Assembly (NCBI GenBank): GCA_002224055.1 | Contig: AZLU01000008.1 | Coordinates: forward strand, 299,492 to 363,491 | Length of the DNA stretch: 64,000 bases | From: Pezizomycotina sp. ARF18 | Taxonomy: Eukaryota > Ascomycota | Direction: 5' to 3' | Shown: one piece after another, positions 1,830 through 62,601 of the stretch | How the letters are laid out: the number at the start of each line of letters is the position of its first letter | Position numbering within the stretch: the stretch's first letter is position 1 | The notes under the pieces: model-generated | What the model was told of the DNA's origin: nothing | The model's database searches: none | The model's input: the letters and a program-made list of their open reading frames with translations, nothing else | Translations under genes and position numbers: made by a program

Positions 1830-4800
1830 ATGGCAACGCTTACAGTCCCCGGGCCTTCATCATCGCCTTTCTCAAACGACACCATCCCTTCATCGCCTCC
1901 CGATTCTCCGACGAACCGCCGCTCAACATCATCATCCCACCTCGCCCCTTCGTCATCGCAACGTCGACGCCGCGCAGCAGCAGCAGGAAACATGGCTCGA
2001 CACGGCGGTCAGGCGGTTTCCTGCTCGAACCTCGCTCCCGGAACTCTTTCCACCACGGTCTCCCGTTCTCCAACAACGGCGGCGGCCGTACTAGCCCAGC
2101 CCCGATCCGATCGATCGCATTCCCCCGGTTCGACTCGTGCGCTGTCGGGTACGACTAGAGTCGTCAGCGTGGCTCGTCGATGACGTCCTCCGCTGCCGCT
2201 CCCGTTAACGCTTTCTTCCGATCACACGGTTCCGAGAGGATAAAAGGGAAAGGTCGGCCGAACAGCTCCGCGCCGAAGACGAACGGCTGAAAGAGCTGCT
2301 GGCGAGGACTATCGAGGGCGATACCGCACGCATCGTAGAACTCGCGGGTGCGATCGACGGCAGTTCCTCTTCGAAAAAGAACCGAAAAAGTGTGGGCGAG
2401 GATACCGGGGAGAGGAGGATGACGGAACACCGGTTAGGTTACTCCCCGCTCCGGGTGGGGCGAGATACGGCAGAACGGCAGCAGCATAGTCCTGGCTTCT
2501 TTAGCCCATGCGGGCAGGGATACGCCGCAGATGGTAACGGAACGATGGGCCGGAAAGCCAGTGCGACGCTGGCGGCTCCCACCCGGACGTGAGTGCTTCG
2601 CCGATGGTACGACATAAGAGCGTTTCGTCGCCGCAGCCGCAGCAACCACAGCTGAAGATCTCCGAGCATACGTGCGCACCGCGCGCAGCGGCGGCGCACT
2701 ACATCGGTCTCATGGCACAGTTCCGGTCGATGCTAGCGAACCAGCCGCCATTCTACGGGTCTGGGATGGTGGAAATAGCGGGAGAAGTACAATCCTTTAC
2801 AGGCTATCGAAACCGGAGACTACGGCGGCAACTGCGCGTCCCGCCGCTCGACGAAACGCCGTGGGAGGATGAGAGGGTTTGGCGGAGTGGATAGACAGCT
2901 ACCCGGACTACAACCCCGCGATCACGAGCAACTTACGAAGAGTACTCCGCCAACGGCCAGGATTACCTGGCGCGGAAGGTGAAGATGCCGAAGAGGATAC
3001 GCTGGGGCTGGGTATCGCCGCAGGTCAACGTAGGGCAAGCAGACATCGGACGGACTGTATGTTACGCCTGAGGAGTTATTCGCGGACAACTACTGGGCGA
3101 AGAGAACCAGACGCTGCTGGAAGACCGTACGGAGATAAAAGATATCCAAATCCGACGTCAACCAGTTACGCTTACGATGCCCGAGCTTTCCGCACGTACA
3201 CAAGGAGCATCATAAGCTACACAAGCACCACCCACCACCGCCACACTCGAGAACGCATTCATTACGTCATCACCACCCGCATCATGGCCTGGAGAAGGCA
3301 AATCCTCGCGCCACACCTGAGAAGCTGAAGGAGGAAGGGGAAGATGGGATCAGGGGAAATTGAAAGGGAGGAAACAGAAACACAGACACCATCACGATCA
3401 TTCATCATCGGATGAGCTGGAGTATTCGGAGGAGGACAGCGATGTCCCTGGTCCGGAGAAGACGTTCATCAATACGAATTTCCCGCGGAAACCGTCACCC
3501 CACCGCATTTAACGCGCCATAGCTCCGAGGGAGCTCGGAAGAAGTACCGATGGTAGATGAGCAGGAGGTACTTCTCCAGCCCACCGCAACGCAGACTCAA
3601 GTCGGCGGTTTCAGCTGGAACACCAGCCACCGGCGCTCCGAATCCCCGAAAAGTCGACGCCCGGTAAGAATTCGTTAAAGTCTGCCGCGAGGAAGATACA
3701 GCAGACTGCCATACCGGGAAGAAGGTAGGACCCAGAGCCTCGATTTCCAAAATCCTCGACAAGGCCAACGAATCGCCTAATTCGAAGCACAAGAGGTCCG
3801 TTACGGCTGCGAACGCGCTTATGGTGAGAACGAGCAAATCGGTGGATAGCAGCGATATAGTGACGCCGAGGCGCCAGTGGCCTAACGTACTGCTCAGTGA
3901 TGGCAATTCTGTATCTGCCGGTACGTCGCGGTACCGTCTACGAACCCCAGCCGGAATCCGAGCGCAAGGACGAGCTTGGAGGAAGGCAGAGGTAGGACAA
4001 GAAGCGGGATAGCATCACGCAGGACTTTTTCGGCGCGCTACGGCGGCGGCAGTCGCGACCAAATCCATGTCCCCGGCGCTTAGGAACGCGTCGTCGTCGG
4101 TTAAGAGTCAACGAGGTGGAAAGGACCCGGAGATGCTCGACAGGAGCTCGTCTAGCTTGGATTTAAAGAGCAACATGACGGATACCACGGACGATTCCCC
4201 GCTGCAGCAGAGCAAGCCGTTCAAATTCGGTACGGTGAAGAAACTACGCTCTGGCGCAGGAAGGGTCGGAGAGATAGTCAGAAATGAAGTCGCGGGCGTC
4301 GGCGATTTTTGCTGGGTACCGGAAGCGATAAGAAGGGCGATTCGGCTAGTAGCGCTAGCAGTCCCGCTAGTTCATCCGACGAAGGCGCGACGGGGATTCG
4401 CAAGCGCATGTCTGTGTTTGGTCGGAAGAAATTACCGGGACTGTCTTCTTCGAAACACCCGACAACGATGAACGTGGCGATGGGAACGCTAGCACGGACG
4501 CGGACGAGACGGACGATGATAATAAGAGCTCGAGAAGAAAGGTAGCAATAACAGCAGCAGCACGAGGAAGAAGTCCTGTACCGGTTACCGCGGATGCCGA
4601 GCGCGGGTCGGGTTCGTCCGCGCCGCCGTCGCCGCTGAGGGAGTCGCAGTCGTTCGATGAGATCGAACGGCCGAAGAATATCCTCGAGGGAAATAATCAC
4701 GGCGAGGACCCGATCGCGGCGCAGTCGAAGATGATAAGGACGCAGCGTCGCCCGTCGCGGTTCTCGCGCCTAGCGCCGCCGGAGATCGAAACGTTCCAGC

Positions 4801-5641
4801 ACCGCGATAGGAGCCCGTCGGCCGCGTGCTTATCGAGTCGATGGAGCAGAAAGCTCGACGGCTCGAAGAGGAGAAGACGCCCATGCCGCCGCGCGCATGT
4901 TATCGCCCGACGGCGATGAGACTCCAAGGACTTACGCAACTGCATGGCTGTCACGCGCAACGACTCCGTCGGCACGATGGCTCTCAAGTCGGTGCCGTAA
5001 CGCACTACTGCGCCGGCAAACCGGGTTGCAGAAAAGCGCTACTGAGACTGCAAGCGGGCATAATGTCCACCGGCGTCCTCTGCCGCGGTATTACGTCCAC
5101 GACACCGCGCCATGAACGCTTCGAAAACACTCTACCCCATGTTCTGCCGTCCCGAAGGTGGCGGCGCCGTCATCGCGCGCGTCGTCAATAGGACGTCTAC
5201 GGTATCTAATAGCATTAAGAGCACTACGACGCACTAGTAAGCGCGCAGAGTACTTTTACTCATAAAACGCTATCGAACTTTATGGGTACGCTTGAGGGTT
5301 TAAGGCGGACGTGGATTTAGACTGGTACCCCTGCGTGCAGCGCATGGCGGACGAAGCCGACGGCCTTAACGCCGCCGTCACGGCGCGTGACACGCTCGAG
5401 GTTAAAAAAGTTAGCGAGATGGCGGAGCGGTTGATTAGACGGAGGGGGAAGGGTATGAAGTGGTTAGGAGGTGGGGGTACGTTTGCTCGAGTGGACGCTG
5501 TTGGGCGTTATGTGGCTGGTGTGGTTGGTCGTCGTCGTCGTTAAGATCGCGAGGACGGTGGTGGGGGGCGCGTTTAAGGCGTTAGGTGGTTCCTGTGGTT
5601 GCCTTAGAAAGGTGTCGCTGGCTTGCTGCTTACGGTCTTGA
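1830..5641 (+). CDS. Large low-complexity, coiled-coil protein with C-terminal membrane anchor (frame-interrupted)
   Basis: A GC-rich coding trace of about 3.8 kb, read in all three frames in turn. It starts at ATG 1830 (MATLTVPGPSSSP, then Ser/Pro/Arg-rich). A charged coiled-coil stretch follows at about 2231-2330, including RSAEQLRAEDERLKELLART. The middle (2.6-5.0 kb) is Ser/Lys/Asp-rich and probably disordered. Near the end, NASKTLYPMFC (about 5115) and DLDWYPCVQRMADEADGLNA (about 5311) are well ordered. The last frame gives a hydrophobic helix, LLGVMWLVWLVVVVVKIA (5498-5551), a short Cys-containing tail, and stops at 5639-5641. A Ser-rich N-terminus, coiled coil and C-terminal tail anchor suggest a membrane- or envelope-tethered protein. 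The C-terminal anchor faintly recalls fungal proteins annotated as 'pathway-specific nitrogen regulator'; that is memory-based and weak. At least eight frame changes are needed, so it is either decayed or carries assembly indels. Confidence 0.5.
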
Positions 5642-20912: not shown

Positions 20913-22567
20913 TTACCTAGGAGTATTTAGCTGGGTTTCGCGCGTTTGGGACGCGGGAGCACTCGGGCCGGCAAAGTCGCCCGAACTCCCTGCCTCATCG
21001 CTCGTTGTTCCATCATCCAGGCAATCTCCCACGATCCGGGTATCGTTAGGAATCTCTTTCTGAGCCCGGGTAATCGGCCTAAACCTCTCATCATAATTAA
21101 CCGTGAACGTTTGAGTGAAGCTTTTGGAAACGTTTTGGTCCACTTTCCAACGATTTTGAGGCATTCGGTGCCTGTTTTTCTCTTCTTGGATCACTCTCCC
21201 AGACCTGTCAGGAGGTGAAGCTTAGATGTTGAAGTTGCCGTTCATGTCATGCAGAGCCTTCGACAACGCCTTTGGCATCCCTCGGTCACCGGCGTTAGGA
21301 AGGCCGGCAGGTTCAACAGTAAACTCGAAGAGCACAACACCCAACGACCAGATGTCGACAGCTCCTGTATATGGAGATTCCCCGCAGCATCGCAGCATTT
21401 CCGGGCCTTGAAGCATTCGGTTCCAACGCTGGTACTAGTTGGAATGGTAACAGCGGTTTCGAAGTCTCCAATCTTAACGCGAAACGGGGACGCAGAGGAT
21501 ACTAAGATGTTGCTGGGTTTTATATCGCGGTGCATATACCCTTTCTCGTGAATGAAGTTCAACTTTCCAATGTTTGGCTTGCCAAAGCTCCGCCTTCGTA
21601 GTCCGTAAGTGTCCGGTGACAATTTTCGCTTCGTTCCACGTAAATTCGACAGCCAGCCGAGAGGTAGTCATTCAGTCACGATATAAAAAGCGCCTTCGAT
21701 AGCAGGAACTCTTCGTACTTGAGAACATTTCTGTATACACAAGAATAAGTAAGCACTTATAAGACAGCTAATCAAAGGATACTGACTCACATGTTGGCAT
21801 TCCCTGAGAATATCAGTTTCATTTAGAAAGCTCCGTACACTATCGAGGCAATTCTCCTTGACTTTCTTCTTTTGCCAGCACAATGACCTTTAGGACTGTT
21901 TGATGAAGCGGTGCAGTTCTGATTAACTTGTATACGGAGTAAGCAACGCGTTGTACAGACGCGTAGTTCTTTTGACCTCTATAACCGGTGTTGTTATATT
22001 ACACATTTCGACATCATTGTTGCTGTCAATGGTTTTCATACAGACGGAGATTCCGCTGATATCTTTTGGTCTCGAGAATTTCGAGCGAAAACAAAGGTGA
22101 ACGTGAAACCGCGTAGGATACCGTGCAGGCTGACCCAAGAGAATAACTTGAGTGCGTTTTGGAGCAATTCGCCGCCATTGTACTTCATACGCCTCTTGTT
22201 TGCCTTCATATTGAATGAGCAAAGAGCCATCGTGGCTGAAACGAATTGCAAAGCCCTCGCAGACACGCATTCGCCAATTTCTCGAGAAATAATGAAGTCA
22301 CAAATATCAGCATCCATGCCGAAAAGATGGCCACGGCGAGCGTTTTTAGAAGGTCTGTCGAACCGTAAAGGAAGCGCATCTGCTTCGAATCCATGTCTGA
22401 CGGAGTGACATCTCTGGCACTGGCTGAATTGGCTGGACTAGCCGGCGGCGTGGGTGCTTTTTCATCTTCAGAAGATGACTCTTCTTCTAGCAGCGCCTCA
22501 TTCTCCTCGAATGCTTTGTGGCATCAGGAGAGGAAGGGCTAATGAATGCATAAATTTGATCAGACAT
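20913..22567 (-). CDS. FHA-like / Ser-Thr protein kinase (frame-interrupted)
   Basis: Starts at ATG 22567 (MSDQIYAFISPSSPDATK), then an acidic, Ser/Pro-rich linker. The segment GHLFGMDADICDFIISREIG and CEGFAIRFSHDGSLLIQYEG (about 22340-22210) resembles an FHA phosphothreonine-binding domain, followed by QWRRIAPKRTQVILLGQPAR. The kinase domain follows: a likely ATP-lysine in VIVLAKEE, helix C SFLNETDILRECQH, a 60-nt intron (21731-21790, GTGAGT..ACAG), the hinge EGAFYIVTE, catalytic loop MHRDIKPSNILV (about 21530), the Mg-binding loop as DFE, not DFG, GPEML in the APE position, and DIWSLGVVLFEF (about 21350). The C-terminal tail is polar and ends at 20913. FHA plus kinase recalls the Rad53/Cds1 checkpoint class, but similarity is limited to architecture. 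Several frame changes, and an in-frame TAA at about 21222, break this copy. Confidence 0.65.
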
Positions 22568-44649: not shown

Positions 44650-45530
44650 TGCTACAGGATAGAACCCCTTGTACCCTGAGCAGCAATCGCAATGTACCTA
44701 TTGGCCACTTTAAACAGACACAGCCACGGAGAACAGCTTTGTTTCCTTATAGGGATCAAGGTTATACCAAGGCTCGGGTAACTTTATAGATACTTGACAT
44801 CGCCAGCGAATCGTTAAATGAGCAGTTTTTAGGTAATCATCGGTGGTGAGCTTCCTAATTCGGGGAAACGAGCGATTTACGACACAAAAAGCTTGTTTTC
44901 TGAATTGGTGGGGTCGGCTGTTGAAAACCCACTTGCCGAAAACATGGTAACGGAAGCTGCCGGATCAACCAAATCTCAAGGAGGGGATTTTGGCTTCTAA
45001 TGAGGCTATTGGCAGGGGAATTAGCTGTCAATGCTCTCTGCATTAGCTATATTATCTTATAATAATCTCGCTATTAGGATAGGTTAATTAGCCTTTTGGC
45101 GTAAGAAAAGATTTCCTAGCTAAGGAGCTGACGGGCAAGAACGCACAGAACCCACTAGGTGTATTATACCTTGTATACGAAAAGTGAACAGGCCACATCC
45201 AAATCCGGATACAATGATGATTCCATGAACTTAGGCGAATCAAGCTTCGAGAAGCCCGGAAGAAGGATTTTCTCCCCTCTATTGCTGCTCCTTGTGCGGA
45301 TTCTGGCCAATACCTGGCGTTGCTTGTAGCCAGGCAACGTAAGCTTCATCCTTCCAGTCCACAGACATAAAACCTAGTTATTATGGGAATGTAAATTATA
45401 AATACTGCGCCTCGGCTCCCCTTGTGGATTGCTTCCTCATCATTACCGCGACCTCTTGGCCTTGAAAACTTATTCACCGAGTTTACTACAAGCACATTGA
45501 AATTCCTTCCCACGAACCTTCCCAATAACA
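44650..45530. other. Spacer and promoter of the 45.5 kb secreted-protein gene
   Basis: Short minus frames at 44855-45043 and 45164-45349 are open but unsupported. The region just before 45531 is AC/CT-rich and carries TATAAATA at about 45397, a plausible TATA element. Confidence 0.35.
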
Positions 45531-46044
45531 ATGCTCGCTTCATCTCTCGTCGTCTTCTTCGCGGCTCTAGCCGCTGCCAACCAAGGCTGGACCGTTCCAC
45601 CCACCACAAAGATGGAGTCTACTCCGTCTCCATCTCCACCACGGTGAACCCACGCACACACACATCCGTTCCATCGATGAGACTGTCATCGCTGCACGCA
45701 GCTCCAACCTTCTCCGCCGCGGGTCGCCCTACTCTGTTAACTGTGGAAACTACGGCCTTAACGCGAACGATATGGAAAAGGCTGCAAGGGGCATCAGGGA
45801 CCAGTGCCGTAGGAGCGCGAGCGTCAAGCCGAACAAGGATTTCTACACTGTTTCTGGAGGCGTTGTTTGCTACTATTGTGACTTTGCGAAGGGTAGCGTA
45901 TGTAAGGCGCGGGAAATGGATGAAGCGCTGAGGCTGGTGGAGGGCGCGTGCGGACGGTATCAATCCGGATGGCAAAATATCCAAGGACACGGTCAGTACG
46001 GCTGCGAAGCTAAGGGGAAGAAGTTCTGCGGTCGTGGTATCTAA
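45531..46044 (+). CDS. Small secreted cysteine-containing protein (two frame changes)
   Basis: ATG 45531 opens MLASSLVVFFAALAAANQG, a textbook signal peptide, then WTVPPTTK. Loss of one base moves the trace to DGVYSVSISTT, and a second loss to IRSIDETVIAARSSNLLRRG. From there the frame is clean: SPYSVNCGNYGLNANDMEKA, RDQCRRSASVKPNKDFYTVS, GGVVCYYCDFAKGSVCKARE, then a helical stretch and YGCEAKGKKFCGRGI, ending at TAA 46042-46044. The mature part has about eight cysteines (C-x-C pairs around YYC), which could form four disulfides. About 170 residues. The LLRRG site could be a dibasic processing site. It recalls secreted fungal proteins of unknown function. An effector or antimicrobial role is only inferred. 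Confidence 0.6.
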
Positions 46045-46344
46045 GGAATTATATCAAGATTGGTTAGCGACAGTGTAAAGAGCTCAGCGGGGTGCTTTGG
46101 TGTTTACATTGTTGACTAAGGCTGAGCGTGTGTTTTATTGGCGGCGTAAATATATTAACAAACGGATGGTTCGTTTTACGCGTAGCTTTTAGATTTTAGA
46201 TCAGGAATATATGACTTTCGTTATTAAAGCGATTTATATCGCGTTAATCAGCTACAATGGATCGCACATGACTTCTAAATATAGATAGTTGGACTTATTC
46301 CAAGAAACTGCCTTCCGAAGACTCATAGAAAGGATACCGACATC

Positions 46345-50585: not shown

Positions 50586-51145
50586 ATGCCTTCCCCAAAT
50601 AACACTCCCACATACTCATATCCAGTCTCCGTTACGACGGGAATCCAATCAGAGGAGGTAGCCAACCGAGCTCCAGAGAGGAAGGAAACCGTCATTTTTA
50701 ACACGCCAATTGATCTCGGGTACACAATGGAGAAGTTTATCTCGGACACTTCTAGCGCCAGCGTTGGCTTTCACATCGGGTCAAGGTCAACCATCGATGA
50801 AGCCGAACTCGAAAAGCTCCTTTCATACTATCTAGATGAAATGGTTGAAGCTGTCGTCGATGAACTTGATAAAGGTAGGCTATTGCTTATAAACTTGAAG
50901 GCTTAATTTTCCTTTATTTTTTGTCGGACGTTGACTTGTTGGAATGTTTTCTTCGTTTAGAGTTCGTCGTGGAATGTCAGACACCGTATTCCACCAACAT
51001 TGACATCGACATCGACGCTGCTGACGCCCGGGAAACCCCGGCTAAACATTGCGACGAAGCTAAGCAGCCGTTGCTTGACGGTTGCGTACTTGTTGATGGG
51101 TCGAGCGATGTGTCTCATTTCGAGTCGAACTGTCAAGGCAAATAG
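50586..51145 (+). CDS. Two-exon small protein, member of local 'Y-x-x-[DE]-[LM]-V' family (intact)
   Basis: Exon 1 (50586-50874) begins MPSPNNTPTYSYPVSVTTGI, is polar through residue 45, then reads TPIDLGYTMEKFISDTSSAS and LLSYYLDEMVEAVVDELDK. An 86-nt intron (50875-50960, GTAGGC..TTTAG, phase 1) follows. Exon 2 (50961-51145) begins with the bases AG, giving Glu, and reads EFVVECQTPYSTNIDIDIDA, then an acidic tail ending SNCQGK and TAG. 157 residues, no indel. No signal peptide or membrane segment. The helix at the exon 1 end, the intron phase and the Y-x-x-x-[IL]-D-I motif after it recur in genes at 53.2, 55.6, 58.3 and 62.1 kb. Function unknown. The best-preserved copy of the set. Confidence 0.65.
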
Positions 51146-53190
51146 AACTCGCCATCGTGTCCAGACGACATGCTACCTAGAAGTTCACGAAATTCGGTTA
51201 TGCCTTTAGTTAGCCCTGAATCTACATGTGATTTCATGCTGAAAACCGACGAAACGGCGGAGGAGAAAAAGAAATGTTAATTTTTATTGAGCATTCTTCT
51301 TTATGATAATGGCTCCGAGCCTTCAAGAAATTAAAACTGAGAAAGTACTTAACTGTTTCTCTTAAAAAAAATTTTTATTCTTAGTAGGTTTATTCATTTT
51401 GATTTGTAATTTAATAGATTTTTAATAATAATATAGTCATGTTTCCTTCTTCATTCTTTCTGATTGTTGTTCTTTTAGATAAAATAATAGTAGTGTTTCT
51501 TTTCCTCGTTATTATTTCTTTCATATGGGGTTCGTATGTGCAGAGGAAGGATGAAGGAAAGGATTTTGGGGGAGAAGAGGGTTTTATTGGAGACACTCAG
51601 CCTCAGCCTTCTTTTTCTTTTCTTTTTTCTTGAATGTTACGCCGCGGTGCAATATTTTCTCCAAGCCCCGTAATACGCGATGACAATTCGCTCATGCAAA
51701 TGCAATGCAGTTCCTCCTCCTCCTTCTCCTTTCCTTCTCCCTAAAATTTTAAATTCTCCATCTATCTCCCTCGGTGCATGTGTAGTAAACTACCGGTCTA
51801 TTGTGTTATCATTCACCAGCATTCTCCATTAAAATTAGGTGACGAGGCTACGGCCATGTTATTTCAACTTCCGATGATCGGTTCTCTTAGAACAAATGAT
51901 TAAAAAAAAGAAAAGAAACAGAAGTAAAACAGTAATCGTCATCTAGCCGTGATTCTAAATTTCTTAGAGGGGCTAGCTCGGACTCCTGGTTGGCCGATAC
52001 GATGCCGATAGGTAGAACGTCACAGGTCCACTTTTCGTCCAGCCAGCTTTCTTTTCCATTTCCCCCTTTTTCGCTTTTCAAACATCGGTAACCATAGAGG
52101 GCGTGTTGTGCACGTTTTATATATTTCACGTTCGCAGCTTCGCCAAAAGCTTTGATCTTGGCATTCCTTTTTAAACCCCAGCAAAAAATTGCTTATCAAC
52201 TGGGCAGTCACGTGCCTTGTGTAAATAGTCTGATATCTTTTATAAAAAAAAAAACAAAAAAAAATGATGCCACGAGACCAGCCTTCAAGTTAACAACATG
52301 AGGAAATAGGATAAGAAAAGTAGGACGGGGCTAACTAGGTTTCCGGGTTTAACAAAGAATCTTTGTTAACCACTTGGTTAGAACTTCTCTAATAAAATTA
52401 TTAACCAGATTATCAATTATTTCAATGTTCAGGTTCAGTTGGAAAGGTGCGAAACAAAAGTTGAGGTGAAGGGGAAGGGAGTCAGGATGCAAGCTGCAAA
52501 AAAAATGTAGAGTTAGAGGGAAGGGGTCCTTTCTGTCTTTTACCATCTCCCCCGTCCAATCATTTCGACTATAGACCTTCCCGCGCCAATCTTTTCCAGT
52601 AGATTTTCTTCCAGTAGATTTTCTTCTAGTAGATTTTCTTCCAGTAGATTTTTCTTTTCTTTTTCTTCCTGTGAACCCTAAAAAGCTACCAGTCAAAAGC
52701 GAACATCAAACCAAACCATGGAAATTTAGAGCTGTTAGGAACCCAGGCCCACATTTCGGAGAAATGCTCAACTACAATGCCTTCTTTTGCTACCTCCCTC
52801 CCCGTCATATATTCACGAACAGAACATGAAATATTATAAAAATGGGAGCAGCACCAGCTTCAGTCACAAAATTCCAAAAGAATAAAACTTCAACCAAGCT
52901 ATAAAGCCAGTAATAACATACAATCCTCGTTTACACTCCGCAAAATACCTTACATTCTATATAAAATCTTAACCTTTACATGTATCAGTCTCATTTATAG
53001 AACTTTTACCAATACAATTCATTAGTAACACATTAGATATCTGAACATAACATTCTCCCGAACATCTATAGTTATATGCTTCTTTCCTTTTATAATAGCC
53101 TATACAAAGGACCAGTCTTTATTTTTTTTTTCCCCTCGAGCATACCCAGTTTCATCTCTTTTGCTTTACCCTTAAGGCTCTATATTCACA
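51146..53190. other. Spacer with 15-bp minisatellite
   Basis: AT-rich. Contains the minisatellite at 52598-52657 inside a 115-codon minus-strand frame (52349-52696; starts MTGSFLGFTGRKRKEKSTGR and is Lys/Arg-rich). The frame may be an artefact of the repeat. CT-rich leader precedes 53191. Confidence 0.4.
52598..52657. repeat. 15-bp minisatellite AGTAGATTTTCTTCC, four copies
   Basis: Copies start at 52598, 52613, 52628 and 52643, with one C/T variant. On the minus strand it encodes Ser-Thr-Gly-Arg-Lys in each unit, and the period is a multiple of three, so frame is kept. Confidence 0.85.
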
Positions 53191-53704
53191 ATGCCGGCCT
53201 TTGCAAAGACTTGCTTCCCTTCAACACTTCCTACCGAGGCTACTCCGATGTATATCCTCGCTAGGGGCCCTTCAAATCCTAAACCAAAATCCAAACCAGA
53301 AATCCGCGCTGTTTCGGGAGTACCCGTGCACCTAACTTATTCCATGGAACGGTACCTGACTTCAGGAACCTCGAATACCGTTTTCGATCCATACATCGCC
53401 GTCGAACAGCAGGTCTACCGAACCGGAGTCGTGAAAAAGACCTTAGAGAATACATAAGGAACCTAGAATTATAACCTATAGCTCTGAAGAATGTAATTAC
53501 TCGATCCTTTTCTATCTTCAAATTCTTTTCTCTATCAATTACCATTTCATCTAATTAACTCATTCTATAGACCTCGAAGATAGTACTAGGAGCCCTGCTG
53601 AGCCATACGAAGCTCATTACCTGACGGAAATAGAGGATTTCGGGAAATATAGAAGCGACGAATTCGTGCTACCTTCCCCTACCTTCTATAATAAACAGAA
53701 ATAA
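53191..53704 (+). CDS. Two-exon small protein, divergent paralogue of the 50.6 kb gene (one frame change)
   Basis: Exon 1 starts MPAFAKTCFPSTLPTEATPM, then a basic Pro/Lys linker, and GVPVHLTYSMERYLTSGTSN, which lines up with TPIDLGYTMEKFISDTSS of the 50.6 kb gene (Pro, Leu, Tyr, Met-Glu, Ser shared at the same spacing). It continues DPYIAVEQQVYRTGVVKK, shifts frame once in an A-rich tract near 53450, and reads HKEPRIITYSSEE. A 78-nt intron (53493-53570, GTAATT..TATAG, phase 1) joins exon 2: LEDSTRSPAEPYEAHYLTEI, EDFGKYRSDEFVLPSPTFYN, with TAA at 53702-53704. Its Y-L-T-E-I-E-D matches the Y-x-x-E-[LI]-[DE] motif in the other members. About 170 residues. Confidence 0.5.
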
Positions 53705-55366
53705 GAGTTGCAATCCACCACTTCTAATCAGGAAATATGGTGCTTGCTCGGAAAAAAAAAAATAAATAAATAAAATGAAATAAGTAAAATACCGATCGCA
53801 ATTAGTAATGATTATAAGGCCGGCAAATATTCTTTAGGTATAGGTAAAGGCGGTTGTCGGTTGTAGGAGTTTCTTCTTCGTTTTCATTCATTCTCTTACT
53901 AAAAAGAAAAAAAAAAGAAAAAGGGCGCCCCTTCTGAATCTAACTCATATCTTGCCTTGTGGGGGTAGAAAAAGGGCAAAAAAGTGTGGGAGGGCACCGG
54001 TTTATGAGAATATATACGTTTTGTTTGCTTGAGCCTCACAGCCTTGTTGCGCTTTCCACGGTTATTCTTACTTCGCACGGGTATTACTCCCAAATAACTC
54101 TGTCGTTTGTCAGCTTATATCCTTCGATGATGCAAGCCTTTCTGTAATTGTTTATCACGATTATGATACGGATTTTTCCCGTGATATAATATTAACAGAA
54201 ATCAAATGATGGTAATCAAGATCATGATCATTCTTGAGTTTTCGTGTAAGCGGAACATCGTAGTATTTTCTCACCTATGGTTTCTTCAAGGAATCTTGAA
54301 GGCTTGTGAACCGGAGAAGAAAAAATCTTTCACCGCAAGATTTTGCTCGTATGACTAGCAATCGCAAGATATGAGCTCCAACTTACTCCGGGTCAGCTTA
54401 CGGCGTTGCCTTTCTCAAAGGTGTGTGAACAAGAAGAGGCTTTTTTTCGGCTCTGGTTCGCCTCGTAGTTTCAAAATAGGTGGGGTTTAGAGCTTTTTGA
54501 TTAAAAGAGCAAGCTCTCATTCAATTTCTTCATCGTTTCTTTTTCTTAGATGTTGGTGCAAAGGGCGTAGGCGTTCGAGATTCATGCGAGTAACAGAAGA
54601 AACGTGTCAATCAGCTTTCTTTCCTTTTTTCTAACTTGATCTTCTTGGCCGCCCGATTTCACCTGATAATTTCTGTTACCCGTTTCAGCTAGAGGGATTC
54701 AATCAAATCAAATCAAATCAATCGCGGAAAACCTTTTAACGGCAAGGATGCTTATTGGTTCGCTTAGAGATTAACTTGCTTTTCCATAGTCGAGGATCCA
54801 AAGATGAAGGCAATAACAGCACGCAGTTTGTCCCTGTACTTTCGTCTTTCTCTTTCTTTTTTTCTTTTTTTTTTTTTTCTTTTTTTCTTTTTCCCTATCG
54901 ATCCCATCTATTTTTATCTGCTGAATATCCCTAAGTTTCCCCCCGAAGAAAGTTGCCCTACTGCTCTTCCCTCCCCGGTGTTTCCCCTCCATCCTCTGTA
55001 CAAAAAGTGATTTTATTCACGAACTTTCGGTCCTCCCACCAGTCTGATCTATAGTGATTAATAAATATATTCCTCGCTCACATATCTTTTCACGCAAGCA
55101 GATTTCTTTGAAGTTTGAATAAAATTCGTTTACTCGTAGAGTAACTATGTGCATCATATAACACATTACATTGGAAGAGTGAGGCTCCGCCATCCTAGGC
55201 ACAACAAAAGATACTCTCAGAGTAAAAACATATTTACAATCGTGATTTCCCAGCGCCGCACACGTTATATGCCCAAACAAAAAAACCTTTTTTTTTTTTT
55301 TAGAAATTATGAATCTACGCCGGGAATACAAAATAGCTATTACGGCGCCTTTTCTCGCGTCTGACT
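53705..55366. other. Spacer, homopolymer-rich
   Basis: No gene seen. It contains AATCA pentamers at 54701-54720, T-rich tract 54850-54890, and A/T runs. Short frames across these tracts are not real. Confidence 0.45.
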
Positions 55367-55737
55367 TTAGATATCGAGTTCTGGTGGGTAGGAATACGAA
55401 GAGGGTCTAATTATATTGGCCAAGAGTATATGTGAGAGAAATGTTCTTGATACAGAAATCATATGTAAATAATGGATGAGCGCATTATTCACCTTCATAA
55501 AGGAACCTTGCCGCAATATCGACGAGATCCTTAATATATCGAATCGGAGGTTCTTCTTTCGCTGAGGCATCGTATATTGGCTTCCGTGTTGCTTAGCCCA
55601 ATGGTGGGTTATAAGGACTTGATTGTTGTCGGTATTCAACTGCTGATTCGCCGTAGTCTTGATTTATCGTAAGACAAATGGGATTCCGAGGACGACGAAC
55701 AGGTGAAGACGAGTGTGAAGTGCAAAGTTGTCGACAT
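55367..55737 (-). CDS. Two-exon member of the local small-protein family (frame-interrupted)
   Basis: From ATG 55737: MSTTLHFTLVFTCSSSSESH, then NQDYGESAVEYRQQSSPYNP, then KPIYDASAKEEPP and RYIKDLVDIAARFLYE, directly followed by a GTGAAT donor at 55492 (phase 1). The final exon reads SSYSYPPELDI and stops at 55367-55369. Its acceptor is probably the ATTAG near 55410, though that is one base out of phase. The helix RYIKDLVDIAARFLYE and the ending YPPELDI match the genes at 58.3 (HYIKDLVDMLRNHLAK, YPTELDILE) and 62.1 kb (HYIKDLVAIAMTILNK, LPVELDISDGDE). This is the only minus-strand member. About 110 residues with two frame changes. Confidence 0.45.
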
Positions 55738-58316
55738 GATGTAAGTATCAAGCAATAGTTATAAACTGGAGGTGGAAGATACGGTTTGAAATGTAGTGCA
55801 CAACATATACCAGAGACCGAGGTTACAGGGAATATATTTTGTTTTATTACGAAAAAAAGACGATATGAAGTATATGAACGTATGAAAGCTGAGCTTTCTG
55901 ATTAATAGTCGGTTAACAGTAGACGGTTGAAATAGTTTAAATAAAAATGACAGGCGACGATGAAGGACAGAGGAGGGAATATATATACACATTTGTAATT
56001 CAGGAAACCGACTGTGCGAAGAGTAAGCTTACGAGCACTCTTTCCCCTCCGATTAAATTACAATGAAAAAAAAAAAAAAAATCCCCAGGCTACGTAGATT
56101 TTAGCTTCGATTCGCCTCGTAGGTCTTTGGAGGTGGGGTAATAGTGTAATAATTTCCTTGAAGGTGCGAGAATGACCATTTCCGCCAGTTGAAGTATTCG
56201 CCGAGAAAGGGGAGCCGGAAGCTCTATCGTCGTCTTTTCGGAAGGTGGCTTTCTAATTTATGCGGGGATAGGCACCTTATTCTTTCCCTCTCTTCATCTT
56301 TTCCCTTTTTTCAGTCGCGAGCTCCAAAAGTGCTTTTTGCTTTTGTAAAATTTTTAAATAAGAGAAAAATAAAAAATCCAGTCCGATTTTCGCGGAAATT
56401 TTGTCATTGTTTGGCCCTGATTGGCTCGCTTACATCCGAATTTTTCGCGCACTTTATAAAGCAAGGGTAGTGACGAAAGTTGGATATGTATAAATTTTCG
56501 GTGTCGCTTTTTCGCTTTTTTTTTTTTTTTCCTCCTTTCTTTCCTTTTTGGCTTTATTCCATTCCCTCCCCCCGGGGAAGGAAGGATAAACCTGTTGAGC
56601 TCGGAACTTTCGAAGAATAACACCACCAAACCCGATTTTCGGCCAAGTTTGTTCCCTCTTAGTCTGTCTACTTACACAAACGCTCTTCTACAATACAATC
56701 CTCCTCCTTCCTCTTTCTTTCTTTTTTCTCCTTTTTTTTTTTCTTACTAAATACCACACATACCACGCGCCCAGTCGTCTTAAAATACGTAAACTTGCTT
56801 ACCGACCTTTAATTTTTTGGCGTATATGAGCTATTAAAGTCACGTGATTTGATTATATTGTTCTGTGAATTGTTAAGTACGGCTAGGCTAAGGCGTAGGC
56901 AATGACAATCTGGATGACTGGAACCGAAGAAGTTCTTTCTTTAAGGGCAAATATAAACGATTAACATAGCCTCATCTGCTACAACCGGTAACAGTGGTGT
57001 ACCGATGATATATATATATATAATAAGTATTGTTTATCACGTTCATGGCGTCATAGGTTATGAACGAGTTTTTTTTTTTTTTTTTTTGGGGGGGGGTTTG
57101 AGCTTTCGCGGTTTCGCGGGTGTTCCGGGGTGGCAGGGACACTGAGCGTTACACTACTAGTAAGTCGCTTCGATTCGCGATTCGGTTGAATAAGTCGCTT
57201 TAGACAACTCAACTCCCATATTATTTTTGTTTTCCATCCATTGAGATCTTTCACGCAAGGGCACACAGCCACTATCCAATGACAAACATAACAACCACGG
57301 AAACGTCCGAATTGCGGTTTATTCCACAAAAAGTCAAGGGTTTAAGTTAAGTCTTGGGGAAACAAAAAATAGCTATAGAAGAAATGCGCACGCTCCTTTC
57401 AGGCCAATAATGTTAATCTTCGGGTAAGAAAATCAATAACTATTTCATATTTTAAAATTGCCAAATAATCGTAATCAATGGATTTGTTTTTCGGAAGCAA
57501 TATCTAACGATTTTGAGATATAGGTACAGAACTTTTTTGTGGGGTTGTAACTGGAGATACAGTATAGAAGTCGTCGTGATCCCACGGAGGCTCTAGATAT
57601 ATAACTCAACAAAAAGACATTATTAAGGTGTCTTAGTATTTTGGCTAATCCGCAGTCAATAAGAGGCTAACGCACAGCAGACCAGAAGCAACAAACAACC
57701 TTTCTTATCCCGCGAGTGAAGAGCGTCTGGTTTTGCCTGATGGTAGAGCTTTACGAGGCCAGAGCTTCTTCAAATTATCGAAAGTGAAACTGTATAGCTA
57801 AACTAGAAGGCGGCTTAAGCAAGGCCAGCTCGCTGTTTTTTCTTTTCGCTAGCTTTCCCCCCAAAGTTTTTGTCCCACGACGCCCGCCCCCAACACAAAA
57901 AAAAAAGTGGTCGCCCACCAGACCATTTTTTCGAGCTGTTGGGGGCCAAAAAAAAAAAGATGGGCCGCGAACAGTAGCCAGCTCTTCAACTTTTGTTTCG
58001 AGTTATTAGGGCCAAAATAAATAAATATATAAAAGGACTGCCGACGAGGCGCCCCTCAACCTTTTTCTAGCTATGAAGGCAAAAAACGACGCTAAAGCCC
58101 TTCTATTCTCGCGACCAAATAACAAGCAATCGATGCCATTAATTATCGTGAACGAGAGAAAAACCTATACATAATTCTTTATCATTCCCCCCCCCCCCCC
58201 ATCGTCACCTTCTCTTTGCAGTACATTTGTAAAAAAATCCTTCGTCAACCGCTTCAGCTGATTCCTTTTAGGGTTTCTATCTGTCCAAGTAAAATCCAGA
58301 ACGTCCTTTCTTCATC
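55738..58316. other. Long spacer, homopolymer-rich
   Basis: No gene supported. Includes A, T and C runs (57071-57087 T run followed by Gs; 58187-58200, 14 Cs just upstream of the next gene) and a locally repeated word (CGAGCTGTTGGGGGCC at 57933 and CGAGTTATTAGGGCC at 57999). A 92-codon minus frame at 57051-57329 crosses a T run and is not called. Confidence 0.45.
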
Positions 58317-58592
58317 ATGTCAAAAAGCTCGTACCATCCGTCAATATCGTCAAGCCCAAACCATCGTCCGATCAACTCTCGTTAATAATGAGAGTCAAGT
58401 TAGGCTCAATATAACTATCGGGTCTCAGCAGTCCACCAGCTACCAGGCGCCAGTAACACGTTCTTCCAAAAATGCGGGCGGAACCAATCTCAGACTACAG
58501 GAGAAAGCTTAGAGGAGTCCAGGGTCATTATATCAAAGACCTCGTTGACATGCTGCGAAATCACTTAGCGAAGGTGACGATACCACTCATAG

Positions 58593-58629
<37 letters not shown>

Positions 58630-58943
58630 GCGCCATTCATTCTGTAGTATCCAATATCTTCATTAACTAGCTCATTACAAGAAGAATAAAAGAAGAAAAA
58701 GAAGTTTACAATAAAAAATAAGATATAAACAAACATTCCTCATAAGTCTCTCTCCTTCCATACATTTGGAAACTTGTTTTCCAGATCTATCTCCCATTCT
58801 CTATGTATCCAGAATATCCTACAAAACATTAGTCCTCTTGTTTCTATTTAATATTTCTTCGGTATATATGCTAATCTTCCACAATATGAAACTCAGAGCT
58901 TTCTAAATATCCTTATCCTACTGAACTCGATATTCTGGAGTAA
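58317..58943 (+). CDS. Two-exon member of the local small-protein family (frame-interrupted, T33 in intron)
   Basis: ATG 58317 reads MSKSSYHPSISSSPNHRPIN, shifts frame, continues NNESQVRLNITIGSQQSTSY, QAPVTRSSKNAGGTNLRL, then ISDYRRKLRGVQ and HYIKDLVDMLRNHLAK up to a GTGACG donor at 58574. The intron would end at ACTCAG (58896), about 323 nt, and contains a 33-base T run (58596-58628). Exon 2 begins with AG (Glu), reads ELSKYPYPTELDILE and stops at 58941-58943. Exon boundaries, the helix and the YPTELDI motif match the other members. About 100 residues. Two indels are needed. The long intron is the weakest part of the model. Confidence 0.45.
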
Positions 58944-60026
58944 TGGGATAGAAACCATTGCTGAGCAACTTCTGCTCTTATCACCTGAAGGTTTCAGTTT
59001 CTTTTCGAACTTCCTGGCTAGATTATAAGGTTTCGATACAGCATGTGGGAGATAGGGACTTGGGATAAGATAAGTATGGGGAAGAGCAAGGGTAAAAGGG
59101 TGAGGAGAGGGTGTATGTAAATCTGAAATTCGACCCTTAATTCATCTTGTTCGGGCTACTTCTGAGAACGCGCGCGGAGCCTCGGTCTCGCTTATTTTAC
59201 TTTTTTTTATTTTCTTTCCATTCTAGTACAACTAAATCGAATAATTATCCTTTGATAGATATATAGGCTCTTGCTATATTGGTACTCCAAAAATAGTTAT
59301 ATCGGTACTCAGACGCTCTCACCTAATTTATATTAAGTAAAAAAAAAAAGGGAGAGAAAAAGTTAACGCTGAGGATTTATAATTAGCGTTATAAATACCT
59401 CGTCGTGTCATAAAAAATAAATATATAAAGTAGTAATACTTATTAAATGATAGTTACTTTCTATTATATTTATTATTTTTTCAAGACCTAAAAAAATTTA
59501 TAATTTATTTGTATACTATATATATATCACGAATTTTATTACGAAAGCTATTTACGTCTGTCAGTTGCGAATCTTAGCTACCGTCTTTCTCTCTTTCTCT
59601 CTCTCTCTCTCTTTTTCTTCGTCTGTCCGTCTATTTTTTTTTTTTTTTTTTTTGATGGGATAGTTGCTATTAAAAGCTTAGCGGCGCGTGCGAGTACGTA
59701 TGCAACAGTTTTTGGGGTACGTATATAGTAAGAGCCTATATATAATACCTTAATAAAATAGTATGCTAGAGGACCTGGGGTAGATAGAAAGGGACAGCAG
59801 TAGTTTCTATATTGTAGATTTTTTTCTCGAATAGGCGACTAGAAAATGATAGTAATCGGAAAACTTTGCAGCCTCAAAGTCGTTTCTCCGACTCACGACA
59901 CCTTCATCCCTTAACCAATTTTTTGAAAGCGATAATCCCTGGTTTCTCTGTAGTTAACCGGGTTAACTCCAAGCAAGACGGCAGGTTTATAGCGCTTGCT
60001 CTCCCCCGGTCTTCGATACAGATTAC
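58944..60026. other. Spacer, AT-rich with CT microsatellite
   Basis: No intact gene seen. A CT run lies at about 59587-59612 and an 18-base T run at about 59636-59653. The final 115 bases may hold a last exon of the minus-strand relic upstream (59911-60026 reads RYKPAVLLGVNPVNYRETRD). Confidence 0.4.
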
Positions 60027-60437
60027 CTAATGGAAAGTAATGGATCAGTTGCGAGACATGTCGCGAGGATGTACGGCGATAAACGTTGAGGCCTGCCTTG
60101 CAAGTTGTGCCCGTCAAAGGCGGGCCCAAAGAGAATAAATCCTGCAGACTCCACAATAGCTGTTATTACGTTTCTCTTCCCTCCCTGTATTCCATATGAG
60201 CTGTACTAATCTGCCGCCACTAAGCAAGTCAGAAGAATTATTTTGGATCCCTCTTCCTTGGTTTCTGCACCATTTAAGTGTGAAAGGCTGAAGAGCCTTA
60301 CTAGGATACGTCCTTGCACGTTCCTGCACGGGTTCAATTCTGTTGCATCCTTGCCCGACTCGTCTTGCCCAACGGAACCGTGCAATTTTTAACGTCCATC
60401 CTTCTCCCGTGCCCGTCTTTGCTCCAGTCTCATACAT
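60027..60437 (-). pseudogene. Decayed exon, membrane-protein-like (possibly RTA1-like)
   Basis: One minus-strand frame is strikingly protein-like: HGSVGQDESGKDATELNPCR, VQGRILVRLFSLSHLNGAE, IILLTCLVAAD, an in-frame TAG, then YSSYGIQGGKRNVITAIVES, AGFILFGPAFDGHNLQGRPQ, RLSPYILATCLATDPLLSI, ending at a GTAATC donor (60026). The order Glu-x-x-Gly, a loop and Pro-Tyr-Ile...Cys-Leu recalls the fungal RTA1-type lipid-translocating family, which has seven membrane helices. Only two short hydrophobic segments are left, so this is a guess. The TAG sits where CAG (Gln) would fit, as C-to-T mutation would leave. No start codon in frame. Confidence 0.3.
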
Positions 60438-62088
60438 CTAATCTAAAGTAATATCGAATCTCTATCTTTATTTCTATTTAAATTAATAATCTTAAATAAA
60501 TAATAAAGGTACATATCTTCAAGACCCTCGCCGGTATGAAGGTGTGAGTTGAAAGAAAGAGTGATTGATGGAAGGGGGAGGCAAGGAAGTGAGAATCTCC
60601 TGGCGGTTGGTCGCCTGTTTTACCTATCAGTCACCCTCTTTTCTGGCCATCCGGTGTGGATTCCCACCCCCTTTCCGTACGCCTGCTGAATCGTCACGCC
60701 AAAACGTCTTTTCTTTCTTGTTTTAAAAATATATATATATCTGATTATCAACTCATCAAAGCGACGCGGGCACGGGAGTTGGCAGACGACTATTACAAAG
60801 GGAAAAAAAAAAAAAGACATGCATGGTGCGAAATGGTAAGATACGTATACCAATCAAAAAGGCTTGGAGAATTCTCTAAGTAACGGCCATCGAACGAATG
60901 TTTTTTTCCAATCGTAGACCTGAAAAAGGGTGCATAGAGAGGAGGAAAGAGTCAAAGATAAGGGGCAGAAAAGAGGGTTCTATAGTATTCGTCAAAATAG
61001 ATTAAGATCCTGTAGAGGACTTCACTGTTCGGCATTGCGTAAATAGATTTGGAGCATCAGGCGAGGTTGACCAATGGGGCAAAAGAAAAAAAAATAAAAA
61101 GTAAAAGGGGGGGAGGCGGTTTGGGTTGCGCAAACTCTCCGTGTAAATGCTCAACCACAAAAACCGTGGTCTCGCTAGACTCTTAGGCGAGGTTGACCAA
61201 TGGGGGCAAAGAAAAAAAAAGAAGAAAAGGTAGAAGGGGGAGGCGGCTTGGGTTGCGCAACCTCTCCGTGTAGCCAAAAGAAAAAAAGAAGAAAAGGTAG
61301 GAGGGAGGCGGCGACCTCTCTGTGTAAATACTAAACGTGGTCTCGCTCAGACTCTCCCGGGAAAAAACTCAAACCGTCCTTCTTTCCTCCTTCTCCGATA
61401 ATCCAATTACATCGATAGCCTACACTTTGGATCAAACAAAAGCAAATAAAATTTGAAAATACTGTAATTTCTTTTTTCCTCCTTATTTTGGTTTCTGAGT
61501 CGTTTTTGTCCGGTATTTTATATGCGATGACAACCCTGCTGGCACATAGCTCACCTCATTCTAGCCGCTTTTTCTTTTTTTTCTTTTTTTTTTATTTCTT
61601 AGTATCTTAGGTACTCATTAGCTAGTCTTACCAAGTAGCTCCGCAGCCCAAGATGGATATGAAGGTTTGCCCGGATATTTCCTGCACGACCGTGCAGTAG
61701 CAATGTGTCTGTAGAGCTACATATCGTTTGCACAAAATAGTTCTCCAGCTAAGAACAACACCGTCAACTACCTTAATTTCATGGCGCACTATTTTGAAAT
61801 ATTATTTATAACCCCCATCTATCGTTCTTCTTTGCCATGAAGAGGTCAGGAAGTTCTGAGTTTTCTACTAATTTTTCATATAAGCGAACTCGAACAAATA
61901 CATGCAATTGCTTATTACCTCTCAAGCTCTCCAGTCCATCACCGCTCCAAAATATAATCCCTCCGTTCCTCTAGTTCGGTAGCTCGCTATTCCGTAGGCT
62001 AACCTGCTTAACAGCTCGACGTCTGGCCGGGTGTACTTCTGCAATTCTAGTCAAAATAAGGTCTCAAGTCCTCCAGTGCTTCTTAGTC
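60438..62088. other. Spacer with tandem duplication
   Basis: No gene supported. Contains the 126-bp tandem duplication at 61061-61357 and a CT/AC-rich leader before 62089. Open frames here are low in complexity. Confidence 0.45.
61061..61357. repeat. Tandem duplication, about 2.7 copies, 126-bp first period
   Basis: GCGAGGTTGACCAATGGGG begins at 61061 and 61187. Both are followed by an A-rich stretch, GGAGGCGG, TTGGGTTGCGCAA and CTCTCCGTGTA. A third, shorter copy (from about 61272) keeps the A-rich stretch, GGAGGCGG, CCTCTCTGTGTAAAT and CGTGGTCTCGCT. The internal A-rich and G-rich runs vary in length between copies. Confidence 0.85.
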
Positions 62089-62601
62089 ATGTCAGTAGCA
62101 TCGCAGGAGTTGCCCTCTACGTCAAGCCTCCGGCCGTCTATACAAAGTTACTCGCCGGGCGAGCAGGATCACTTTGCCTCCAATCAAACGATTAGTTCAC
62201 AGCACAGCTATTGCGAATAAACCGCGATGACCCGCCCTTCTACAAAAGAGGGAAGAAATGAAACGAGGCCCGCGGAGGGCGTGAGAAGAGCTGGAGCTCC
62301 ACTATATCAAGGATCTCGTAGCTATAGCTATGACCATCCTTAATAAGGTAAAAATTTAAACCCGCTATCTAATTCCTATGTTCTATTTCCGCTGTTATTT
62401 CTCTCAAGTCTATTCCGTATTCAGTTTTATCCTGCTTTACCTTCCCGGTCGTACTATAATCTTATTTTTATATTATTTGTAATACTCCTTTGTGCCTGCC
62501 TGTTCTTTCTAACTCTACCAATATACACAACAGTCCATTCTTCGTACCTACCCGTTGAACTCGATATCTCGGATGGAGACGAGAAGGAAAACTCTATTTG
62601 A
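62089..62601 (+). CDS. Two-exon member of the local small-protein family (frame-interrupted)
   Basis: ATG 62089 reads MSVASQELPSTSSLRPSIQS and YSPGEQDHFASNQTISSQHS, and stops in frame at about 62220. After indels the trace resumes with ELELHYIKDLVAIAMTILNK up to a GTAAAA donor at 62348. A 186-nt intron ends ACAACAG (62533). Exon 2 completes a phase-1 codon and reads HSSYLPVELDISDGDEKENS, with TGA at 62599-62601. The Ser/Gln-rich N-terminus, the helix before the intron and the VELDI motif after it match the members at 50.6, 55.6 and 58.3 kb. About 115 residues. Two or three indels are needed in the middle of exon 1. Confidence 0.45.

Follow-up and report, generated by a model that had tools for sequence, protein, structure and literature searches.

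A tandem array of apparently lineage-restricted small-protein genes in Pezizomycotina sp. ARF18

Fungi are well known to carry tandem families of small proteins that are restricted to a lineage. The second helix of basic helix-loop-helix (bHLH) proteins often ends in Y-I-K/x-x-L. Here we analyzed a locus on contig AZLU01000008.1 (C8 below) of Pezizomycotina sp. ARF18 that invites comparison with both. The window, i.e., the whole stretch of DNA analyzed, comprises 64 kb (C8:299492-363491), and positions above 64 kb are window-equivalent positions on the same contig. Towards its end, small putative two-exon genes follow one another, each predicted to encode a short helix containing YIKDLV or a variant of it; YIKDL is similar to the last part of bHLH helix 2, a likeness that we treat as a lead only. 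Sequence comparisons indicate that these genes form a real and apparently lineage-restricted tandem family of small, probably intracellular proteins. The source fungus is probably a pezizomycete, as the Rpn2 protein encoded on the same contig matches that of Tuber magnatum best (78% identity).

Extent and membership of the array

An initial annotation had proposed four genes and a probable fifth, all within the window. We read the DNA of positions 50-64 kb in full, and the five proposed sites in three frames. A six-frame scan located the helix and exon-2 motifs where they had been placed, at 55.5 kb (-), 58.3 kb (+), and 62.1 kb (+). These copies share one design, consisting of a helix YIKDLVDIAxxxLxK, a splice donor where the helix ends, and a short exon that carries YPxELDI. 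Counted from the residue preceding Y, YIKDLV lies at 55521-55541(-), 58526-58546(+), and 62300-62320(+), and YPxELDI or LPVELDI follows about 150, 385, and 245 nt downstream, respectively.

Profiles were scanned against 304 kb of C8 (149492-453491). The next-best sites for a profile of the three window helices were located at 71.1 kb (23.4 bits), 73.1 kb (17.1 bits), and 75.1 kb (10.0 bits), while five Markov controls of 302 kb peaked at 9.6 bits, a level that the 75.1 copy barely exceeds in this test. The 75.1 copy was first found by a profile scan of the 304 kb (13.9 bits, E 0.029), and the 73.1 kb helix by a motif scan of the 30 kb beyond the window, which also revealed an exon-2 motif at 66.0 kb. 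When each helix was left out in turn, all six copies (55.5, 58.3, 62.1, 71.1, 73.1, and 75.1) were recovered as the best non-training match in the 304 kb, with E values from 7.9e-6 to 0.024 (2.4e-5 for 55.5, 0.014 for 58.3, 2.6e-5 for 62.1, and 0.024 for 75.1, each with a profile of the five remaining copies). The proposal that the resemblance exceeds chance is thus borne out by both the recovery and the controls, and the profile matches that the initial annotation had called for elsewhere in the genome do occur, further along the same contig.

The array therefore extends past the window end, spanning about 25 kb from 50.6 kb to about 75.4 kb, and comprises about seven to nine paralogous gene copies, all except one on the + strand. 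The 66.0 kb site (C8:365523) carries exon 2 only and is backed by a 48-nt match to exon 2 of the 55.5 copy; a run of 1886 N bases (C8:363492-365377) starts right after the window and precedes this site, and could hide a helix exon. The clustered family first described thus stands, but it is larger than the four or five genes proposed, and the 50.6 and 53.2 kb copies of that proposal are missed by the helix profiles. On sequence grounds the six profile-recovered copies are firm members: all carry the helix Y-[IV]-[KR]-D-L-[VA], and all 15 pairs of their hand-spliced or hand-joined pieces align at 0 or 1 of 400 shuffles. Alignment suggests that 50.6 is likely a member, while 53.2 is a weak candidate, linked to the array by its similarity to 50.6 exon 1 alone. 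L-x-Y-[ST]-M-E-[KR]-[FY], which the initial annotation correctly assigned to both, occurs in the six-frame window scan at 50715 and 53332 only.

Motif counts across the 46.4-Mb assembly (408 contigs) also pointed to this locus. A looser, degenerate helix pattern gave five matches, all inside the array and within 20 kb (control 0); since its design followed five of the six copies (all but 62.1), this indicates that there are no others of that form rather than an independent discovery. Motif A (Y-[KQ]-A-P-[IV]-T-R-S-S) is present in the two clearest copies, 58.3 and 71.1, in which it sits 88 and 91 nt before the helix; the pattern Y-[KQ]-A-P-[IV]-T-R, itself derived from these copies, matched both and nothing else in the genome (control 1). 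Exact YIKDLV had seven matches, four clustered in 16 kb of C8 (including one beyond the window, at 71.1 kb) and three elsewhere (reversed control 2), and YPxELDI had five, two in the array and three elsewhere (control 0). The outside matches are YIKDLV on C1, C22, and C296 and YPxELDI on C64, C122, and C135. The four that were read by eye, YIKDLV on C1, C22, and C296 and YPSELDI on C122, stand in unrelated contexts where the rest of the design is absent.

Predicted gene structure of the copies

The predicted proteins comprise about 100-160 residues. Exon 2 contributes about 60 residues to the 50.6 copy and 14 to 31 to each of the remaining ones, and in most copies little sequence follows Y-P-x-E-L-D-I. 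The features within the window are as follows.

50586..50874 (+): 50.6 copy, exon 1; Ser/Pro-rich N-terminus, LGYTMEKF, and helix YYLDEMVEAVVDELDK in an open frame
50875..50960 (+): 50.6 copy, putative intron of 86 nt, phase 1; GT-AG join preserving the open frame
50961..51145 (+): 50.6 copy, exon 2; YSTNIDIDID, acidic tail, then stop (frame reading, join test)
53191..53704 (+): 53.2 site (weak); N-terminal frame with LTYSMERY at 53332-53355, exon 1 related to 50.6
53451 (+): 53.2 site, helix-like YIRNLEL in another frame, then stop; exon 2 may begin at 53571
55494..55592 (-): 55.5 copy, helix exon piece ATRKPIYDASAKEEPPIRYIKDLVDIAARFLYE (motif scan, left-out profile)
55370..55390 (-): 55.5 copy, exon-2 motif YPPELDI, then stop (frame reading, motif scan)
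58317..58573 (+): 58.3 copy, exon 1; start MSKSSYHPS, motif A YQAPVTRSS at 58441, and helix YIKDLVDMLRNHLAK at 58529-58573, three pieces in three frames
58574..58898 (+): 58.3 copy, putative intron of 325 nt, phase 0 using the second of two adjacent AGs (join test)
58899..58943 (+): 58.3 copy, exon 2 LSKYPYPTELDILE, then stop (motif and join tests)
62089..62347 (+): 62.1 copy, exon 1; start MSVASQELPSTSS, MTRPST region, and helix YIKDLVAIAMTILNK at 62303-62347 in another frame (left-out profile)
62534..62601 (+): 62.1 copy, exon 2 with LPVELDISDGDEKENSI, then stop; the nearest acceptor does not bring it into frame with the helix

Two repeats were observed between these features. Upstream of the 62.1 copy, at 61059-61312, a unit of about 87 bases is directly repeated, with two long copies at 87% plus an incomplete third, and a short tandem repeat of TTTTCTTCYAGTAGA-like units was seen by eye at 52590-52660.

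A conserved intron at the helix end had been proposed for the family. An in-frame GT-AG join from the helix end to the motif exon was found at five of the eight sites tested (50.6, 58.3, 71.1, 73.1, and 75.1), with alternative in-frame joins also present in 50.6, 71.1, and 75.1. The claim does not extend to the remaining three: 55.5 needs a donor inside the helix, 62.1 needs an earlier acceptor, and 53.2 has no in-frame join. The phase 1 intron proposed for 50.6 does keep its frame open, as would four other GT-AG joins. For 58.3, by contrast, the intron end had been set at 58896, 2 nt short of the in-frame acceptor, which ends at 58898, and with this acceptor exon 2 does not begin with Glu as had been thought. 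Predicted phase is 1 in 50.6, 71.1, and 73.1 and 0 in 58.3 and 75.1. The predicted intron position in these five copies appears conserved to a base or so, while conservation of its phase is not firm.

A single frame runs uninterrupted from start to stop in the 50.6 copy only; at seven of the eight sites that have an exon 1, the helix is out of frame with the start. An extra 5' intron was considered as the cause of this frame change and rejected. Under loose rules it fitted all seven copies but also 129-171 of 300 shuffles of each, and under strict rules one of the seven, against 46-61 of 300 shuffles.

Competing readings of the array

We consider it probable that the locus is one live tandem array of seven to nine paralogous small-protein genes, in which assembly errors account for many of the frame breaks; the proteins are probably intracellular and may act in docking. 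That the resemblance arises by chance or from a repeat at the DNA level, with no protein family behind it, is so improbable that we count it as refuted. Consistent with such a reading, DNA similarity between copies is limited to the motif blocks. Besides local repeats, blastn returned a single match, the 48 nt shared by the exon-2 blocks of 55.5 and 66.0 (79%, E 0.004), and the four of 21 copy pairs that beat all 100 shuffles in pairwise DNA tests did so inside a motif block, a pattern which we read as a sign that the duplications are old. Against it speak the recovery of left-out helix copies by profiles, the confinement of the looser helix pattern to 20 kb of the genome, and the codons themselves. 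Across the six YIKDLV codons of five copies, pairwise base differences numbered 0, 4, and 31 at the first, second, and third codon position, respectively; 29 of the 33 codon differences were synonymous. Such a concentration at third positions (31 of 35) is unexpected for a DNA element or for chance, and suggests that the peptide was under selection. The six helix copies might instead constitute the family, with 50.6 and 53.2 as an unrelated or separately related adjoining pair, which we judge unlikely. Both are absent from the top 40 matches of helix profiles built on the other copies in the 304 kb. The first exon of 53.2 aligns with that of 50.6 (0/400 shuffles) and finds no support among the remaining copies (best value 39/400), and a genome search with the 50.6 protein returned only itself. 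However, the spliced 50.6 protein aligns with 71.1 and 75.1 (0/400 each) and with 58.3 (1/400) over the helix and exon 2, and with 71.1 also over the motif A region, of which LGYTMEKF is possibly the counterpart; its intron stands at the same place. Its match to 62.1 is doubtful (10/400), and no significant alignment was obtained with 73.1 (99/400) or 55.5 (111/400). The earlier ranking of 50.6 and 53.2 as the best preserved copies is not supported: by sequence they are the most divergent, and frameshifts in this assembly also hit housekeeping genes.

Those frame breaks raise the question of whether the array is a relic, i.e., a once-functional tandem family in which all or most copies are now pseudogenes and 50.6 is perhaps the last live one. 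We regard this as doubtful, although it accounts for several observations: the separation of start and helix, which an extra 5' intron explains no better than shuffles, the stop in the helix frame of 53.2, and a density of breaks above that of HSP70 genes. On the other hand, conserved genes of the same assembly are broken likewise. Six HSP70 loci contain 21 frame changes without room for an intron (six each in two loci, none in one), of which 19 is the safer number because two lie between largely overlapping segments (C70, C3). Five of these six loci are split (e.g., C49:53036-54818 and C70:64385-65993), as is one of three RPB2-family loci (one change); the HSP70 count is based on 38 rows less one (C10, lone on its contig) and the RPB2-family count on 10 rows less three (C257). 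On C8 itself, a copper ATPase gene changes frame four times without intron room and Rpn2 does likewise, both as read by eye. These frame changes can hardly all be real. The splits indicate that the assembly carries frequent small indel errors, so that broken frames in the array do not show pseudogenes, and the almost wholly synonymous differences in YIKDLV also speak against decay. According to PMC12007338, long-read assemblies are known for small indel errors. The present assembly is presumably of this type.

Several results nevertheless weigh against a live array of docking proteins. Across seven sites, some 2.4 kb of putative coding DNA contains at least 10 breaks, or about 12 if intermediate frames are counted. 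They are denser than the 21 in the roughly 10.2 kb spanned by HSP70, so some copies may be truly dead. For the whole helix and for YPxELDI, the protein-level signal is less clear: over the 15 helix codons of five copies, 45 codon differences were synonymous and 65 nonsynonymous (base differences 45, 40, and 92 at codon positions one, two, and three), and over YPxELDI in four copies there were 12 and 11, respectively (base differences 11, 6, and 21). The family is known from DNA alone, and its predicted structure is limited to one confident helix. Genome protein searches with the 50.6, 62.1, 73.1, and 71.1 pieces matched only the locus of each query. Homologue searches yielded no match at E up to 10 for the 50.6 protein (24 candidates) and none for the eight-member alignment (743 candidates), an absence that is weak evidence since the search requires shared 5-residue words, although the database does contain fungal proteins such as the Tuber magnatum match of Rpn2.

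Proposed role and comparison with known families

In the predicted structure of 50.6 exon 1, residues 72-96 form a helix at a pLDDT of about 90-95, the rest is low (pTM 0.30), and a second helix at 48-56 has low confidence. The array helix is amphipathic, with a moment that is high relative to shuffles in seven of seven copies (fractions 0.004 to 0.053). By eye, the N-termini lack a hydrophobic leader in seven of eight copies, and 55.5 has a short hydrophobic stretch. The anatomy of these proteins, in which a variable, disordered N-terminus precedes a short helix and tail that stay constant, suggests a docking role for one partner. In the favoured reading, the array grew by old local duplications, and its copies diverged until little beyond the motifs remained alike. 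The proteins, most of them without a leader visible by eye, would stay intracellular, where the helix of about 15 residues and the C-terminal Y-P-x-E-L-D-I strand may bind the same partner while the disordered Ser/Pro-rich N-terminus varies between copies. It is also conceivable, but quite improbable, that the array is a fast-evolving recognition or genetic-conflict locus (e.g., strain self/non-self recognition, or a selfish element and its resisters). In such a locus, each paralogue would combine a docking helix and tail that stay constant with an N-terminus that varies, and copy content would differ between strains.

A Pfam search of 20 reading frames of the contig returned three matches over the cut-off, namely an F-box-like gene at 37.6 kb, a Pkinase fragment at 21245-21667 (-) with E 2.1e-10, and a fungal rhodopsin-domain gene downstream. 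These neighbours give no hint to the role of the array. Elsewhere in the window, 45300-46053 (+) contains a hydrophobic-leader piece MLASSLVVFFAALAAANQ and, in a different frame, a Cys-rich piece (SVNCGNYG...CEAKGKKFCGRGI); together they resemble a small, secreted, cysteine-rich protein whose coding sequence is divided between two frames. A GC-rich island at 2001-5000 (0.55-0.61, versus 0.36-0.47 in most of the window) holds long overlapping frames on both strands.

The proposal of the initial annotation that this is a clustered two-exon family without a known match, shaped by local duplication and divergence, is supported, and more strongly than could be seen from the window: the array continues outside it, and the looser helix pattern and the motif A pattern are confined to the array. 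As far as database searches and a literature search covering at most the starts of abstracts reach, the family is apparently undescribed; the latter returned nothing on this family or genome. The PDB gave no match for 50.6 and six for the eight-member alignment, which we take as chance (E 0.23 to 0.46). Pfam returned nothing for seven of eight members and matches below the cut-off for 50.6 only. These were to CdrL_M (PF24252) and DUF7115 (PF23428), around the helix and exon 2, and at 17.3 and 15.7 bits both fall short of the 27-bit cut-off and concern one member of eight. Nor was a match to bHLH proteins obtained: all eight members (composites with X) lack an HLH match in Pfam at E up to 1, and by eye no basic region and first helix precede the array helix.

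The closest parallel is with the orphan tandem families of fungi. The array has no sequence relation to any named family in our searches, and while many secreted orphan families have leaders, seven of its eight N-termini appear to have none. An assembly rich in small errors can make most copies look dead for technical reasons, and gene prediction may then easily overlook or misjudge such families. If expressed, the array would be a clear case of a gene family that arose and persisted at one locus in one fungal lineage, with enough copies to show which residues are kept. Like the fungal orphan families, it consists of small proteins at one locus with no homologue found, diverging fast around a few fixed positions.

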